The position numbers and the translations under genes are program-made. DNA of 41,691 nucleotides from Rhodothermales bacterium (GTDB taxonomy: Bacteria; Bacteroidota; Rhodothermia; Rhodothermales; JABDKH01), in contig JANQRN010000018.1 of the NCBI GenBank assembly GCA_028284545.1, positions 1 through 41,691 on the forward strand, given 5' to 3'. Within the stretch, counting starts at the first letter, position 1; each line of letters begins with the position of its first letter. This document shows positions 14,597 to 23,047 of the stretch, piece after piece. Under the pieces are notes generated by a model. The model searched no databases. It saw only the letters and a list, made by a program, of their open reading frames with translations, and was not told the origin of the DNA.

Positions 14597-15742
14597 ATGG
14601 CCGGTATCTACATCCATGTGCCGTTTTGCGCACGGCGGTGCACCTACTGCGATTTCTACTTTGTGACAACAGCAAAGTCGTACGCGCCGTTCGTGCGCGC
14701 CCTGTGCGGCGAGATCGGTGCGTACGCCGGCCGGTACGGCTCCCGGGAGCCCGTCAGTACCGTCTACTTCGGTGGTGGCACGCCGTCAAGACTCCCCCTG
14801 GAAGACCTCAATCGAATCCTGGCAGAAATTGAAGCCGGCTTCGACACCTCTTCGCTCGATGAGGTCACGATCGAAATCAACCCGGATGACGTAGATGGCG
14901 CGTACCTGCGCGGCCTGAAGGCAATGGGCTTCTCTAGGGTCAGCGTCGGGATACAGTCATTCTACGAGAGCGACCTGAACTTCATGAACCGGAGCCACAC
15001 CGCTGAACAGGCAAGCTCCGTCCTGGACGCGGTTGCCGAGACGTCGTTCGACTCATATTCGGTCGACCTGATCTTTGCGCTGCCCAACCAGCCCGAAGAA
15101 TACTGGGCCGCCAATCTTGAACGCCTCGCCTCACGACCCGTACCTCACATTTCGACCTATTCGCTCACCGTTGAAGCCCGTACACCGTTGGCGCGCATGG
15201 TTCGAGATCACGAGGTGCAGGTGGTAGATGAGGATTCGCAGGCGGCGCAGTATCGCTTTGCCATGGACTACCTGCGCGGCGCGGGATACGAACACTACGA
15301 GATCTCGAGTTTTGCGCAACCGGGTCATCGCGCCGTCCACAACCAGGCCTACTGGGCGCATAGCAACTATCTCGGCTTCGGCCCTTCGGCGCACTCATTC
15401 TGGAATGAGCGTGGGCGGCCACAACGATGGGCAAACATCCGAAACCTGAATCGATACGTCGGGCTGCTGGAAAACCGTACAGACCCGGTCGAATTCCGCG
15501 AAGTCCTGGACGCCGAGACGCTGGCAAACGAGCACATCATGCTGCGACTTCGGACGACAGAGGGACTGAGCCTGGAGACGCTCGAGTCCGCCTACGGGAT
15601 CGACTTGTACGACGAGCGCGTAGACGATCTCGCGTGGTTGGAGTCAGAGTCATTGATTCAGCCGATCCGAAACGACGTTGTCCGGCTAACTGAAGCTGGC
15701 CGGACGGTTTGCGACATGGTGACGACAAAACTTATGGTCTGA
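14597..15742 (+). CDS. hemW: Radical SAM heme chaperone HemW
   Basis: A 381-residue radical SAM protein of the HemN/HemW family. The cluster motif is Cys11-x3-Cys15-x2-Cys18 (CARRCTYC), followed by YFGGGTPS and GVQSF. The HNQAYW motif at about 250-255 marks HemW, a heme-binding chaperone, rather than the coproporphyrinogen dehydrogenase HemN, which also has an N-terminal extension missing here. HemW is thought to deliver heme to respiratory enzymes. It is often misannotated as oxygen-independent coproporphyrinogen oxidase. The start ATG follows the 14079 gene by 14 bp. Confidence 0.93.
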   Translation: MAGIYIHVPFCARRCTYCDFYFVTTAKSYAPFVRALCGEIGAYAGRYGSREPVSTVYFGGGTPSRLPLEDLNRILAEIEAGFDTSSLDEVTIEINPDDVDGAYLRGLKAMGFSRVSVGIQSFYESDLNFMNRSHTAEQASSVLDAVAETSFDSYSVDLIFALPNQPEEYWAANLERLASRPVPHISTYSLTVEARTPLARMVRDHEVQVVDEDSQAAQYRFAMDYLRGAGYEHYEISSFAQPGHRAVHNQAYWAHSNYLGFGPSAHSFWNERGRPQRWANIRNLNRYVGLLENRTDPVEFREVLDAETLANEHIMLRLRTTEGLSLETLESAYGIDLYDERVDDLAWLESESLIQPIRNDVVRLTEAGRTVCDMVTTKLMV

Positions 15743-15759
15743 TTTTGACGCCCCGACGA

Positions 15760-16269
15760 ATGAACGGCATTCCCTCGCGAGCCGTACTCGCTGTGCTGCT
15801 CTGCGTATTTGCGCTGGGCTGTGCTCAGAACGACTCCCCGCCCCCATCTACCGAAGAACCCAAGTTCACGGTTGAAGGCGAACTGCGGTTCATCGGTGAG
15901 GACGGCGCCCTGATCGCACGAATCGCAATAGAGCTCGCGGAAACACAGGAGGAGCAGAGCACCGGTTTGATGGGGCGTCGATCTTTGCCCGCCCTCGGAG
16001 GAATGCTGTTCGTAAACGACGAGCCGAGGATGCAGCACTTCTGGATGAAGAACACTCCGCTACCGCTAGACATCATCTTCATTCGAGATGACCTGACGAT
16101 AACGAACATCGTCAAACGGACGCGTCCCTTATCATCCGACTTTATCGACTCGACCGAGGAAGCTCAATACGTTCTGGAGGTTCGCGGCGGTTTCACGGAT
16201 CAATATGGAATCGACGAATCGGCCAGGGTCGAGTGGCGCCGACTAGAGGCCAACGAACTGTCAAGCTAA
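15760..16269 (+). CDS. DUF192 family lipoprotein (first copy)
   Basis: A 169-residue lipoprotein with signal peptide and lipobox ALGC (Cys near residue 21). The rest is a DUF192 domain with the hallmark GLMGRRSL, GMLFV, FWMKNTPLPLDIIFI and a final GGFTDQYGI-type segment. DUF192 proteins are small extracytoplasmic proteins of unknown function. The ATG at 15760 is preferred because it begins directly before the signal peptide, 17 bp after hemW; an upstream frame inside hemW is open but implausible. A related copy follows 3 bp downstream. Confidence 0.9.
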   Translation: MNGIPSRAVLAVLLCVFALGCAQNDSPPPSTEEPKFTVEGELRFIGEDGALIARIAIELAETQEEQSTGLMGRRSLPALGGMLFVNDEPRMQHFWMKNTPLPLDIIFIRDDLTITNIVKRTRPLSSDFIDSTEEAQYVLEVRGGFTDQYGIDESARVEWRRLEANELSS

Positions 16270-16272
16270 ACG

Positions 16273-16803
16273 GTGACGCAAATCTTCCAGTCAAACTCCC
16301 CCTTGCGATCTGCCGTACTCATCGCAGCCGCCCTCGTATTCGCAACAGGTTGCGGACAGCGTTCTGGCTCATCAGGTGGATCAGGCGTATCGAAATCAAC
16401 TAGACCAGCACAACAGGACGTGCCCTTCAGAGCCGACGGTGAGCTGGTGTTCGCGAGGGGTGGCGATGAACTCACGAGTATTTCGATTGAGATTGCGGAC
16501 AACGACTCCAGCCGAACGCGCGGATTGATGCAGCGCTCTTCACTCGCTGACGGCACGGGAATGCTTTTCATCTTCCCGACCATCGACTACCAGTCGTTCT
16601 GGATGGCAAACACGCAGATATCCCTGGACATCATTTTCGTCGCGGATGACTCGTCCATCGTGGACATCCACAAGTACACGCGGCCCCTGTCGCAGGACAA
16701 CGTCGGCGGAACGCAGCTCTCTCGATTCGTAATCGAGGTGCCTGCCGGATACGTGGACACGCACGGTATCGTCGAGGGAGACCGTGTCACATGGAGCCGC
16801 TGA
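16273..16803 (+). CDS. DUF192 family lipoprotein (second copy)
   Basis: A 176-residue lipoprotein, starting at a GTG 3 bp after the previous stop. The signal peptide ends in lipobox ATGC (Cys near 27), then a Ser/Gly-rich linker, then a DUF192 domain: GLMQRSSL, GMLFIF, FWMANTQISLDIIFV and PAGYVDTHGI. It is clearly paralogous to the first copy (shared GLM-R-SL, SLDIIF/PLDIIF and TRPLS), yet many positions differ, so the duplication is old. Function unknown. Confidence 0.9.
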   Translation: MTQIFQSNSPLRSAVLIAAALVFATGCGQRSGSSGGSGVSKSTRPAQQDVPFRADGELVFARGGDELTSISIEIADNDSSRTRGLMQRSSLADGTGMLFIFPTIDYQSFWMANTQISLDIIFVADDSSIVDIHKYTRPLSQDNVGGTQLSRFVIEVPAGYVDTHGIVEGDRVTWSR

Positions 16804-16808
16804 GCGCC

Positions 16809-16824
16809 TCGGGCTAGAGCCCGA
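16809..16824. terminator. Convergent hairpin between DUF192 gene and erpA
   Basis: TCGGGCT-AG-AGCCCGA forms a strong 6-7 bp stem in the 10-bp gap between convergent genes, overlapping the erpA stop. It could end transcription from both sides, but lacks a T-tract on either strand. Confidence 0.4.
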
Positions 16825-17146
16825 AAGACTCGCCGCAGGCACACGTACGCGCGGCGTTGGGATTTGCAAAGTGGAAACCTTTCCCTTCCAGACCGTCCGA
16901 GAAGTCTAGCTCCGTACCATCCATGTGTAGGCGGGCCTTCAGGTCCATGACGACCGTCAAACCGGCTATTTCTCGCTGCTCGTCGGTCTCGCCGAGCGTC
17001 GTGTCCCAGCCGAGATCGTAAGTAAGGCCTGAGCATCCGCCCTGTTTGACCGCTACCCGGAGGTAGGTCGCTGAGGCGTCAATTCCCTCGTTCTCGGCGA
17101 CTTCGAGGAGCCGCTCCGCAGCACGGTCTGTAATTGTGAGGTCCAT
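16814..17146 (-). CDS. A-type iron-sulfur carrier (ErpA/SufA/IscA family)
   Basis: A 110-residue HesB/IscA family protein. The three conserved cysteines are present: Cys38 in GGCSG and Cys102 and Cys104 in TCACGESF. These carriers take Fe-S clusters from the scaffold and insert them into target proteins. It is divergent from sufB across a 202-bp gap, so it likely serves the SUF machine as SufA or ErpA; family members cannot be told apart by sequence alone. Confidence 0.93.
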   Translation of the reverse strand: MDLTITDRAAERLLEVAENEGIDASATYLRVAVKQGGCSGLTYDLGWDTTLGETDEQREIAGLTVVMDLKARLHMDGTELDFSDGLEGKGFHFANPNAARTCACGESFGL

Positions 17147-17348: not shown

Positions 17349-18809
17349 ATGAGCGTCAGCGAAAAGGACTTTCTCCAGGAGGTCGCAGACAGCGACTACG
17401 AGTATGGCTTCGTCACCGAGATAGACGCCGATACCGCTCCGAAGGGCCTAAGTGAGGACACGGTCAGGCTCATCGCGTCAAAGCGAGACGAACCCGCCTG
17501 GCTGGTTGAGTGGAGGCTAAAGGCGCTGCGGCACTGGGAAGCCATGCGTGATGACGAGGCCTACCCGCAGTGGGCCCACCTGCACTACCCCGAGATTGAT
17601 TTCCAGGACATCAGCTACTACAGCGCGCCAAACAGTAAGCCAAAGTATGAGAGTCTCGACGAGGTAGATCCTGAACTGCTACGCACGTTTGACCGACTTG
17701 GCATTCCGCTTCAGGAGCAGAAGGTACTGGCGGGCGTCGCGGTGGACGTCGTTATGGATTCTGTTTCGGTCGCGACAACGTTCAAGGACGAACTGGCCAA
17801 ACACGGGATTATATTCTGTTCCTTCGGCGAGGCCATTGAACAGCACCCTGAGTTGGTCAAGAAGTACATCGGCTCCGTGGTGCCCTCCACCGACAACTTC
17901 TACGCGGCGCTGAACTCCGCGGTTTTCTCTGACGGTTCCTTCTGCTACATCCCGCCGGGCGTTCGGTGCCCGATGGAGTTGAGCACGTACTTTCGCATCA
18001 ACCAGGCGGGGACGGGTCAGTTTGAACGCACGCTTATCATAGCTGACGAAAACAGTTACGTCAGCTACCTCGAGGGGTGCACCGCGCCGCGACGGGATGA
18101 GCACCAGCTTCACGCTGCGGTGGTAGAGATCATCGCAATGGAGGGTGCCGAGGTGAAGTACTCCACAATACAGAACTGGTATCCTGGTAGCCTGGACGGT
18201 CGCGGAGGCGTCTACAACTTCGTAACAAAGCGTGGTATCTGTAACGGTCGTGGAGCCAAGATTTCGTGGACGCAACTCGAAACAGGAAGCGCAATCACGT
18301 GGAAATACCCCAGCGTCATCTTGAAGGGTGACGATAGCGTTGGCGAGTTCTACTCAGTTGCTTTTACCAAGGGCAAGCAGCAGGCGGATACTGGCACCAA
18401 GATGATCCACCTCGGGCACAACACGAGCAGCACGATCATCTCAAAGGGAATCAGCGCCGGAGAGAGCAATAACAGCTACCGTGGCCTCGTCAAAATCAAT
18501 CCAAAGGCACGCAACGCGCGCAACTTCTCGCAGTGCGACTCGCTCTTACTTGGCGATCGCTGCGGAGCACACACGTTTCCCTACATCGAAGTCCAGAACT
18601 CAAGCTCCCAGGTAGAGCATGAGGCTACGACGTCAAAAGTAGGAGAAGACCAGATCTTCTACTGTAATCAGCGCGGAATCGGCGAGGCCGAAGCGATCAA
18701 GCTAATCGTGAATGGCTTCTGCAAAGAGATTCTAGCGGAGCTTCCGATGGAGTTCGCGGTCGAGGCGCAGAAGCTCCTCGCCATCGAACTCGAAGGTAGC
18801 GTTGGGTAG
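17349..18809 (+). CDS. sufB: Fe-S cluster scaffold subunit SufB
   Basis: A 486-residue SufB, the core scaffold of the SufBCD complex on which Fe-S clusters form. The region [21 protein letters not shown] and the Cys at about 396 in [17 protein letters not shown] match the conserved assembly site. [24 protein letters not shown] is typical of the C-terminal half. Length is normal. It leads the operon sufB-C-D-S-(E-T). The ribosome site before the ATG is weak. Confidence 0.97.
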
Positions 18810-18871: not shown

Positions 18872-19636
18872 ATGAGCATGCTTCAAGTAAAGAACCTTCA
18901 CGTCGAGATCGAGGGAACAGCGATCCTCAAGGGTCTCGACCTGACGATTGCACCAGGCGAAGTGCACGCGATAATGGGCCCGAACGGTTCCGGAAAAAGT
19001 ACGTTGGCCTCCGTTCTCGCAGGCCGCGAGGAATATGAGGTCACCGCTGGTGAGGTGATGTTTCTGGGAGAGGACCTGCTGGAAATGGAGGTTGACGAAC
19101 GAGCCCGAGAGGGCGTCTTCCTCGCCTTTCAATACCCGGTCGAGCTCCCGGGAGTGAGCATGTCCAACTTCTTGCGGGAGGCCGTCAATTCCGTACGCGA
19201 GCATCGGGGCCAGGAATCACTGTCGGCCGTTGACTTCCTTCGCGTCATGAAGGAGAAGGCCGCCCTGGTGGAGTTGAATCCGGACCTCAAGAAGCGGTCT
19301 GTCAACGAGGGCTTCTCGGGCGGAGAAAAGAAACGCAACGAGATCTTCCAGCTCGCCATGCTGGAGCCAAAGCTCGCAATCCTCGATGAGACCGACTCGG
19401 GACTCGACATCGACGCGCTGCGCATCGTCGCCGATGGCGTCAATCGGATGAGGGCTGAGGATCGTTCTTTCCTTGTCATCACCCACTACCAGCGCCTCCT
19501 TAACCACATCGTTCCCGATGTCGTACACGTCCTTCTCGACGGTCGCATCGTTCGGACCGGAGACTCTTCGCTCGCGCTGCGGCTTGAAGAACAAGGATAC
19601 GACTGGTTGAAAGAAGAACTTGCCACGCCCGCCTAG
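18872..19636 (+). CDS. sufC: Fe-S assembly ATPase SufC
   Basis: A 254-residue ABC-type ATPase. Walker [10 protein letters not shown] is near residues 34-42, signature [10 protein letters not shown] near 149, Walker [13 protein letters not shown] near 169. The EKKRNE variant of the signature and ETDSGLD are specific to SufC. It powers the SufB/SufD scaffold. A second Met two codons in is an alternative start. A 62-bp gap from sufB contains the 10-bp palindrome GCTGATCAGC. Confidence 0.97.
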
Positions 19637-19643
19637 AACGAAC

Positions 19644-20960
19644 ATGAGTCAGATCACCGATCGTTTTGTCACGGCTTTCAAGCTGCACGACGGCACTCAC
19701 TTGAACGGAAGCAACGAGCGACTGCGTGAACTTCGGCGTTCTGCGATCGAGTCGTTTGGAAAGCTCGGTCTGCCGGGCAGGAAGAGCGAGGCGTGGAAGT
19801 ACACGCCCATCAGTCGATACGTCAGGGATGACTTTGCCATCGATCTTGCCGGCAGAGGTGCTGCTGACAGCGACGTAGTAGACGTTAATTCGTTGCGCAT
19901 TCCGGGCATGGATGGTCCGCTTCTCGTCCTTGTCGACGGAGTCTTCTCAAGTGAACTGTCGCGCACCGACGGACTGCCGGAGGGCGTCGTAGCGGGATCC
20001 CTGAGGTCTGCTCTCGCGGAGCAACCAGAAATTGCCGAAAGCTATCTGGCGTCATACAACGACATTGAATCCCAACCGTTTGAAGCGCTCAACACGGCAT
20101 TCATTCAGGACGGTGCGTTCATTTCAGTCGCGGACCGAACCGACGTTGCGGAACCTCTGGAGATTTTGATGCTGACTTCCGCCGAGGCGCCACGTTTTCT
20201 GCAACCCCGTATCCTAATCCAGGCCGGCGAGAACGCCGGGGTGCAGGTCGTAGAGCATCAGCGATCGCTTGGCAATGCCGCCTGCTTCAACAACTCTCTT
20301 TGCGAGATATATGCTGCGCGTCATGCACGCGTCTCGCACATCCGTCTTCAGGACGAAGGGCCGAACGCTTATCACGTTTCAACCACACGCATTCGGCAGG
20401 ATGGCGAAAGTGACGTATCGACGTTTACGGCCACACTTGGCGGCCGCCTGATTCGTAACAACCTCAGTTTCCTGCCTGACGGCGAACACTGCACGTCACA
20501 CTTGAATGGCGTTTTCGTCGGCACCGGCGATCGGCACATAGATAATCATACGTTTGTCGATCACGCCTGGCCCAATTGCGAGAGCAACGAGTTGTACAAG
20601 GGAATCCTTGACGACAAGTCGATCGGCGTGTTCAATGGTAAGGTCTTCGTTCGCCGCGATGCGCAAAAGACCAATGCTTATCAATCGAACAACTCGGTAG
20701 TCCTTTCAGAATCGGCAAAGATGTTCGCCAAGCCGGAGCTGGAGATCTACGCCGACGACGTCAAATGCAGTCACGGAGCAACAACTGGCCAACTGGACGA
20801 GGAAGCAGTGTTCTACCTCAGGTCCAGGGGAATCGACGCAAAAAGCGCCCGGACCATGATGCTGAATGCGTTCGCGGGTGAAGCGCTTGATCTCATCTCC
20901 GTTGTACCTGTGCGAGAGCACGTCGAAGCACTACTCGAAAGGGAACTCGTGAAACTGTGA
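19644..20960 (+). CDS. sufD: Fe-S cluster assembly subunit SufD
   Basis: A 438-residue SufD, paralogue of SufB and partner in the SufBC2D complex. The N-terminal helical part has GRKSEAWKYTPIS, a family hallmark. The C-terminal beta-helix has KCSHGATTGQLDEEAVFYLRSRGI with the important His near 377. The ATG at 19644 is 7 bp after sufC; an in-frame TTG inside sufC is less likely. Its stop overlaps the sufS start. Confidence 0.96.
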   Translation: MSQITDRFVTAFKLHDGTHLNGSNERLRELRRSAIESFGKLGLPGRKSEAWKYTPISRYVRDDFAIDLAGRGAADSDVVDVNSLRIPGMDGPLLVLVDGVFSSELSRTDGLPEGVVAGSLRSALAEQPEIAESYLASYNDIESQPFEALNTAFIQDGAFISVADRTDVAEPLEILMLTSAEAPRFLQPRILIQAGENAGVQVVEHQRSLGNAACFNNSLCEIYAARHARVSHIRLQDEGPNAYHVSTTRIRQDGESDVSTFTATLGGRLIRNNLSFLPDGEHCTSHLNGVFVGTGDRHIDNHTFVDHAWPNCESNELYKGILDDKSIGVFNGKVFVRRDAQKTNAYQSNNSVVLSESAKMFAKPELEIYADDVKCSHGATTGQLDEEAVFYLRSRGIDAKSARTMMLNAFAGEALDLISVVPVREHVEALLERELVKL

Positions 20961-22204
20961 GCGACCTCATCGAGATACCAGAGGCTCCGACGGCTACCGC
21001 GGCTGCGGTATTGAGGCGCGATTTCGCGAACCTCCGTCAACGCGTGTACGGTCATCCGCTGGCATACCTCGACAACGCAGCAACCACGCAGAAGCCGGAC
21101 ATCGTCATTGACCGGATTCATCGGTTCTACGCTACCGAGAATTCGAACGTGCACAGGGGTGTTCACTATTTGTCGCAGCAGGCGACCGACGCATTCGAGC
21201 AAGTCAGGGCTACGGTAGCGAACTACATCGGCGCCAGCCCAAGTGAGATTGTGTTCACGTCGGGCACAACGCACGGCGTCAACATGGTCGCCTCGGGAAT
21301 GGCCCAGCGGCTTCAACCAGGCGACGACGTTATTGTCTCGGCCCTTGAGCACCACGCCAACATCGTCCCGTGGCAAATTGCGTGCGAGCGATCTGGAGCC
21401 ACGCTCAGGGTCATTCCAGTCGACGACGGTGGGGTCCTCGACCTTACCGCCTACGGAGAGTTACTCAGCGACCGGACAAAGATCGTAGCCGTCGGTCACA
21501 CCTCCAACGCAATCGGCACGATCAATCCAGTGTCCGAGATTAGCAGGCTTGCGCATGAGGCAGGAGCTGTCGTCCTGGTTGATGCCGCACAGGCGTTTGC
21601 ACACGGACCAGTAGACGTCGAGGAGCTGGGTGCCGATTTCCTGTGCTTCTCGGGGCACAAGATGTTTGGTCCCACCGGCACCGGCGTCCTGTTTGGGCGG
21701 CGTGATCTGCTTGAGGCCCTTCCTCCTTTTCAGGGCGGTGGTGACATGATCGACACGGTGTCGTTTGAAGGCACCTCGTATGCTGACGTACCGCACAAGC
21801 ATGAAGCGGGTACGCCTAACATCGCGGGCGTCCTGGGATTGGGTGCAGCAATCGAGTACTTGCGGGGGCTTGATTGGGAACTGATCCAGCGCCACGAGAA
21901 TTGGCTTCTCGAAACGGCTACGGAACAGCTTCGTCGGCTCAGCGGAATCACCATTGTTGGTACTGCGCCGAATAAAGCCTCTGTCGTGAGCTTTGTGCAC
22001 CACAAAGCGCACCCATATGATGTGGGTACCGTCCTCGATCGTATGGGTGTTGCGGTACGGACGGGCCATCACTGTGCCATGCCGCTGATGGAGCGATACA
22101 GTTTGCCGGGAACGGTACGCGCATCCTTTGCCCTGTACAACAACGGAGCAGACATTGAGGCGCTCCTCGCGGGCATGCACAAGGTCGAATCTCTCTTCTC
22201 TTAG
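20957..22204 (+). CDS. sufS: Cysteine desulfurase SufS
   Basis: A 415-residue PLP enzyme of the group II desulfurases, which takes sulfur from cysteine for Fe-S assembly. The PLP Lys is near 235 in FSGHKMFGPTG. The persulfide Cys is near 373 in RTGHHCAMPLM, as in SufS. It starts at a GTG overlapping the sufD stop (GTGA), so translation is coupled. The fused SufE domain in the next gene would be its sulfur acceptor. Confidence 0.96.
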   Translation: MSDLIEIPEAPTATAAAVLRRDFANLRQRVYGHPLAYLDNAATTQKPDIVIDRIHRFYATENSNVHRGVHYLSQQATDAFEQVRATVANYIGASPSEIVFTSGTTHGVNMVASGMAQRLQPGDDVIVSALEHHANIVPWQIACERSGATLRVIPVDDGGVLDLTAYGELLSDRTKIVAVGHTSNAIGTINPVSEISRLAHEAGAVVLVDAAQAFAHGPVDVEELGADFLCFSGHKMFGPTGTGVLFGRRDLLEALPPFQGGGDMIDTVSFEGTSYADVPHKHEAGTPNIAGVLGLGAAIEYLRGLDWELIQRHENWLLETATEQLRRLSGITIVGTAPNKASVVSFVHHKAHPYDVGTVLDRMGVAVRTGHHCAMPLMERYSLPGTVRASFALYNNGADIEALLAGMHKVESLFS

Positions 22205-22219
22205 ACCGACGATTCCGCT

Positions 22220-23047
22220 GTGGCGGCAGCACTGGCGATGACAGCAGAAATCTCAGATCGTGGCGCAGAAATCGTCGAAGAGTTTTCACTCTTCGATGAC
22301 TGGCTTGGTCGGTATGAATATCTGATCGAACTGGGTAAGTCTCTTCCCCTGATCGACGATACCCACAAGACCGACAGTTTCAGGATTAGGGGTTGTCAAT
22401 CTCAGGTCTGGCTGAAGCCAGAACTGACCGACGGGCGGATGTTTTTCAAAGCCGACAGCGACGCCCTGATAACCAAGGGTCTGATAGCGCTGCTCGTTCG
22501 CGTACTGGATGGCCAGTCGCCCGAGGCTGTAGCAGATGCCGACCTGGCGTTCCTCGACGATATCGGGATGAACGAGCACCTGTCGCCGACGCGCAAGAAC
22601 GGGCTCAGTGCCATGATTGATCGCATTCGAACGTTTGCGAGTGCGGCGGCAGCAACGGGCCATCTGCCAGACACTCCGGCTGACGGAGAGAACGATACGG
22701 AAGCCGGTGAATCTGACGCGAGTGCAGCCGACGGATTCGATGCTGACACGATGCGCGACAACGTAATTGAGGCTCTGAAGCTCGTTTACGATCCGGAAAT
22801 ACCGGTTAACGTCTTTGACCTCGGCCTGATCTATGATGTGTTGGTATTTCCCGATCGCTCGGTCAAGATTGTCATGACGCTGACCACCCCGAACTGTCCG
22901 GCAGCGGGCATTCTCCCGGCTCAGGTCGAGACGCGCGCCGCGAATGTCAGCGGCGTCTCCGAGGCACGCGTCGAATTGACGTTCGACCCACCCTACACGC
23001 CAGACCGGATGTCGGAAGCGGCCAAACTGGAACTCGGATTCATGTAG
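22220..23047 (+). CDS. SufE-SufT (DUF59) fusion protein
   Basis: A 275-residue two-domain protein. Residues about 10-145 are SufE, with the sulfur-accepting Cys near 59 in RGCQSQVWL and DSDALITKGLIALLV. An acidic, Ala-rich linker follows (about 147-172). Residues about 175-275 are a MIP18/DUF59 (SufT-like) domain: EALKLVYDPEIPVNVFDLGLIYDV, and TTPNCPAAG with Cys near 226. SufE passes sulfur from SufS to SufB; SufT aids maturation of Fe-S proteins. The frame runs on through the linker with no stop, so the fusion looks genuine. The start is a GTG, or an ATG 18 bp later. Confidence 0.92.
   Translation: MAAALAMTAEISDRGAEIVEEFSLFDDWLGRYEYLIELGKSLPLIDDTHKTDSFRIRGCQSQVWLKPELTDGRMFFKADSDALITKGLIALLVRVLDGQSPEAVADADLAFLDDIGMNEHLSPTRKNGLSAMIDRIRTFASAAAATGHLPDTPADGENDTEAGESDASAADGFDADTMRDNVIEALKLVYDPEIPVNVFDLGLIYDVLVFPDRSVKIVMTLTTPNCPAAGILPAQVETRAANVSGVSEARVELTFDPPYTPDRMSEAAKLELGFM

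Follow-up and report, generated by a model that had tools for sequence, protein, structure and literature searches.

In Fe-S biology, genetics assigns the poorly understood SufT to maturation, but the chemistry of this factor is uncertain. SufU is an analogue of SufE. For E. coli it is established that SufE is loaded with persulfide by SufS and delivers it to SufB (accessible parts of PMC11408855 and PMC8593673), and an active-site Cys together with an Arg is named as universal for SufE in the former. For M. tuberculosis, the accessible part of PMC9045647 describes a SufT that dimerises, contacts SufS, SufU and client proteins through its one conserved Cys and is reported without bound Fe or cluster; earlier work mentioned there had seen no contact of this SufT with other Suf proteins.

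Fusions of SufE or DUF59 with other Fe-S factors are known. The plant plastid proteins SufE1 (SufE-BolA) and SufE3 (SufE-NadA) carry an Fe-S-related domain C-terminal to SufE within the same chain, and the BolA part of SufE1 binds glutaredoxins according to the accessible text of PMC5890173. DUF59 is N-terminally joined to an Fe-S factor, e.g. a U-type scaffold (S5), in architectures S1-S9 and in the Oligotropha Nfu-SufT protein; in the part of that published DUF59 survey that is accessible (PMC4982691), SufE-DUF59 is not among the nine architectures. The window (the whole stretch of 41,691 nucleotides that was analysed) holds a gene in which SufE is followed by DUF59. This arrangement resembles the plant proteins, whereas the partner domain differs and the plant proteins are those of a eukaryotic organelle; by analogy, SufE1 is the nearest precedent.

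The fused gene and its two domains

The fused gene sufE-sufT spans 22220..23047 (+) and encodes 275 aa from a GTG, although an in-frame ATG at 22238 aligns better with the N-termini of the relatives and is the probable start (269 aa). Pfam placed both domains in this single uninterrupted frame. The SufE domain (PF02657; 22274..22633, residues 19-138) scored 155.8 bits against a cut-off of 27 (E 5e-46) and covered positions 1-120 of the 121-position profile. The NCBIfam SufE equivalog NF006792, which we take to be a narrow enterobacterial-type model, scored 96.6 bits, below its cut-off of 160. The predicted persulfide acceptor Cys59 (22394..22396) lies in a GCQS motif, and both this residue and Arg125 were invariant in 11 aligned fused proteins; from its position in LSxxRxxGL, Arg125 is taken to be the equivalent of E. 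coli R119. Like E. coli SufE (1mzg, 8vbs), the domain is full-length and has the active-site Cys, the LSxxRxxGL Arg and the same fold (Foldseek, TM on target 0.88 to 1mzg). The E. coli protein stands alone, whereas here DUF59 follows C-terminally.

The DUF59/SufT domain (PF01883; 22754..22972, residues 179-251) scored 56.5 bits against a cut-off of 23.5 (E 3.5e-15). Its match to the SUF-associated DUF59 model TIGR02945 (NCBIfam) covered residues 178-275 and positions 2-99 of the 99-position profile, with 135.6 bits narrowly below the whole-protein cut-off of 143.4. Folds 3lno and 3cq2 were matched, the former with a TM on target of 0.89. Membership in SufT is indicated by the single conserved cysteine (Cys226 in NCP, 22895..22897, from codon position and the alignment of fused proteins), the DPE motif and the suf-operon context. 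M. tuberculosis Rv1466 and S. aureus SufT have the DPE motif, the Cys-Pro, the terminal position in the suf operon and the fold in common with it; they differ in that the present domain is joined to SufE and stays below the TIGR02945 cut-off.

The two domains are connected by about 36 aa (residues 143-178, 22646..22753), of which 10 are acidic and none basic. AlphaFold2, run on an 80-row alignment, gave two confident domains (mean pLDDT 90.2, pTM 0.60), and pLDDT fell below 50 only in residues 157-170, so that the middle of the linker is predicted to be disordered. In a phmmer search, solved SufE and DUF59 chains matched separately and none of the 13 sequences spanned both.

The suf operon

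On the same strand, the fused gene is preceded by sufB (scaffold, 17349..18809; TIGR01980, 628 bits), sufC (ATPase, 18872..19636; TIGR01978, 371.8 bits), sufD (19620..20960; TIGR01981, 278 bits) and sufS (cysteine desulfurase and upstream partner, 20957..22204; TIGR01979, 542 bits), and it thus closes a sufBCDS-(E-T) gene order. Since sufD runs 4 bases into sufS and 15 bases separate the sufS stop from the start of the fused gene, these genes likely form one operon. A divergent A-type carrier of the SufA/IscA/ErpA family lies at 16814..17146 (-) (TIGR00049, 103 bits; PF01521). The earlier note on this DNA had described the last gene of a suf operon as encoding SufE and DUF59 in one protein, with cysteines near 59 and 226 and an acidic linker, and on each of these points it agrees with our results.

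Fusion in related genomes

The genome studied here (G000) belongs to a family (f1) represented by six genomes. The same fusion was found in G296, which is of the same genus (78% identity), and in G299 from another genus (66%); in the remaining three (G297, G298, G300), sufE and sufT are adjacent separate genes. Both related fusions run in one frame, and no stop was found in the linker of either G296 or G299. G296 and the named locus L056 (Rhodothermia bacterium isolate Co_bin.317) are apparently one assembly, so that two independent genomes, not three, support the fusion.

Between G000 and G296, synonymous change is near saturation throughout the gene (0.6-0.7). Nonsynonymous change (pN) reached 0.54 in the linker, against 0.13 in SufE and 0.07 in SufT; the linker also contains a 9-codon in-frame indel. 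The frame is maintained while the linker drifts, and constraint acts on the domains, not on the linker. Basic residues are lacking from all three linkers of the family, which measure 36, 27 and 19 aa and contain 10, 9 and 5 acidic residues.

These comparisons bear on two rival explanations. The assembly is a draft in 326 contigs, and an assembly or sequencing error might have deleted the stop between two genes; because G296 and G299 carry the fusion, with linkers that differ from each other's and from ours, this explanation is rejected as virtually negligible. The GC3 of the linker (0.53, vs 0.65 for the whole gene) also speaks against it. Alternatively, a separate SufT might still be made, either by translation from a start codon within the linker or by linker cleavage. 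The window does have an ATG as the last linker codon and the predicted disorder would favour cleavage, but the start-like linker codons of the three genomes are misaligned (ATG 35 in G000; GTG 0 in G296; GTG 1 and ATG 4 in G299), and we consider this very improbable.

Distribution in the phylum

Fusions were called by reading the DNA and not by the open-frame length of the matches, because the latter reads through stops. The survey covered the host phylum plus plasmid records. From the order of the window, 99 genomes were searched and 87 loci read (86 and the window); seven of these were without one of the domains at the locus, and of the 12 genomes left unread, nine had weaker matches outside the listing and three had no match. 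Among the 80 genomes with both domains at one locus, only three carried the fusion, all from f1. Two sets of candidates were rejected on reading: G303, open over 342/342 positions, has two ORFs in the DNA, and a stop separates the two genes in all nine of L006-L014.

An even sample of the phylum gave at least 3 fused genomes out of 296 (9 stop-separated and 3 fused genes among the 12 full-length matches listed); the true figure may be higher, as split matches would escape this search. Among 30 loci read in the order of G059 (123 genomes searched), three were fused, as were five of 30 in the family of G478 (79 genomes searched). The named loci, restricted to the best 80 of 589 relatives by a ranking that favours fusions, included seven. 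Altogether, 13 further fused genes occur in the phylum beyond f1, making 16 distinct ones, and ten besides that of the window were confirmed by Pfam. Plasmid records with a match numbered 291, and coverage of the query stayed below 80% in each. A Chlorobiota-centred search sampled the same phylum as the even sample and added no fusions.

The expectation in the earlier note that the two genes are normally separate is borne out by 77 of the 80 order loci with both domains. On rarity the outcome is mixed: the fusion is not unique, with 16 genes and several origins, nor is it common, with 3/80 order genomes. As to whether it had already been described, no earlier account of a SufE-SufT fusion was found in the open-licence literature, although automatic domain annotation of the architecture may exist. 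We regard the SufE-SufT (SufE-DUF59) architecture as probably new.

The motifs GC[QT]S, DPEIP and [NTS]CP are kept in all 16 fused genes. Linkers range from 14 to 54 aa, and outside f1 they are not specially acidic but Thr/Ala-rich or mixed in composition; linker acidity characterises family f1 and not the fusions as a whole. In the fused protein of G382 (L212:1501-2361:-), the linker holds a run of about ten threonines, unlike the acidic f1 linkers.

That the single DUF59 cysteine persists in 16/16 fused genes would be expected if Cys226 accepted sulfur from Cys59 within the chain, which would make SufT a second sulfur carrier. Against such a direct relay, the pTM of 0.60 gives no fixed domain arrangement, and a persulfide on any SufT was not found reported in the accessible parts of the literature consulted. 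We consider it improbable.

Origins of the fusion

Trees were calculated from concatenated domain rows with the linker omitted. At least 8 changes between the fused and the unfused state were required on a tree of 84 rows (12 fused) and at least 10 on a tree of 113 rows (16 fused); these counts do not separate gain from loss. A single clade of all 12 fused rows was rejected (p 6.6e-5). For the three fusions of f29, a common clade was not rejected (p 0.266), and the event counts accordingly lean high. The f1 trio formed one clade, although its support of 93/70 is not strong. Conservatively, we count five independent origins: f1, f29, the family of G478, L061 and L072. Because separate genes are widely spread, they are presumably the ancestral state.

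The likely route to the fusion is seen among the unfused loci. In 10 of the 77 separate pairs of the order, sufE and sufT share a frame and are divided by just one stop, and the same holds for 14 of the 25 separate loci read in the family of G478, a share inflated by a listing that favours full-length matches. The single-stop loci of that family are L241-L244, L246, L249-L252 and L255-L259. In G372 and G086 (L205, L206), SufE matched in pieces, as if with an insertion, and one stop precedes sufT.

The main rival to a functional reading, possible though we hold it only tentatively, is neutral fusion: the stop between in-frame, co-transcribed neighbours was lost by chance, both domains still work and the cell is not affected. 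The commonness of the one-stop state among separate pairs agrees with this, as do fused genes with unfused near relatives (such as L068, next to L069/L070 in the tree) and a linker that is unconstrained in sequence and variable in length. However, the fusion was retained across two genera of one family, and no other readable suf pair was fused in the 80 named loci. With loci lacking one member of a pair set aside, the fused counts in this set (best 80 of 589) were 0/25 for B-C, 0/25 for C-D, 0/29 for D-S and 0/49 for S-E; the corresponding 7/79 for E-T is an overestimate, as the ranking is biased towards full-length matches.

Within the window's own order, family f8 has SufS and SufE fused in each of its 14 readable genomes (L164-L173, L176, L178, L180, L181), as ORFs of 567-627 aa with sufT separate. 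G304 from another family (L043) likewise has a SufS-SufE fusion and a separate sufT, its 445-aa ORF being cut by the contig end. The f8 ORFs resemble the present gene in that sufE is fused to a suf neighbour, but there it is the left neighbour. As sufE is fused to sufT or, in f8 and G304, to sufS, it is the fusion-prone member, with either neighbour as partner.

Proposed function

The reading we favour, with a probability of roughly 0.55, is one bifunctional SUF protein that arose by loss of the stop between in-frame co-transcribed neighbours and whose tether holds SufT at the sulfur relay. By family resemblance, Cys59 of the SufE domain would receive persulfide sulfur from SufS and hand it on to SufB, and the DUF59 domain would act as a SufT-like maturation adaptor via Cys226. 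Once the stop codon between sufE and sufT had been lost, the former intergenic gap would have become the flexible acidic linker. The tether would set a 1:1 ratio and keep SufT at the SufS/SufE/SufBC2D relay, so that a contact which is transient for separate SufT proteins could become permanent.

The gene has one frame, intact domains and a linker, the fusion arose repeatedly and independently, and relatives display the unfused, ancestral-like state. We infer that both activities are retained and that the tether is beneficial. Against the favoured reading, separate genes serve most relatives well, three of the six f1 genomes are unfused, the linker evolves fast, and the earlier work on M. tuberculosis had seen SufT contact no other Suf protein. 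By analogy, a tether between SufT and SufE would fit the published contacts of the M. tuberculosis SufT with SufS and SufU (PMC9045647); the suggestion in the earlier note that the fusion could tether late assembly to sulfur delivery would agree with these contacts as well.

A bolder and, in our judgement, unlikely proposal is that SufT works as a partner dedicated to sulfur donation rather than mainly as a late cluster carrier. It might sense the SufE persulfide or aid its discharge, coupling release to client loading; recurrent fusion would then record that contact, and the fused family would represent a locked version of an otherwise transient SufS-SufE-SufT complex. For the role of SufT, several origins with the same domain order and both active sites kept suggest that it works closely with SufE. 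The fused genes further provide ready-made single-chain proteins in which the two cysteines are separately mutable.

Other SufE and DUF59 proteins and neighbouring genes

The own genome contained two SufE and two DUF59 matches in all, the fused gene included. Since the other SufE is joined to a MocA-like domain and the other DUF59 is an ApbC/Mrp-type carrier, no further SUF-type SufE or SufT was seen in this assembly, which is 81% complete, so that separate copies could be absent from it. In this second SufE protein (L002:838-1887:-, contig C198), encoded divergently from xdhC, the SufE domain retains its Cys and has a MocA-like molybdenum-cofactor nucleotidyltransferase as its fusion partner. 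No other SufE-MocA-like protein in one open frame was present among the matches listed from 114 order genomes, and a link to Mo-cofactor sulfuration is possible.

Beside the A-type carrier gene of the window, the adjacent ORFs 15709-16269 and 16273-16803 (+) resemble a pair of paralogues encoding small, lipoprotein-like DUF192 proteins, the second assigned by its PF02643 match and the first by eye.
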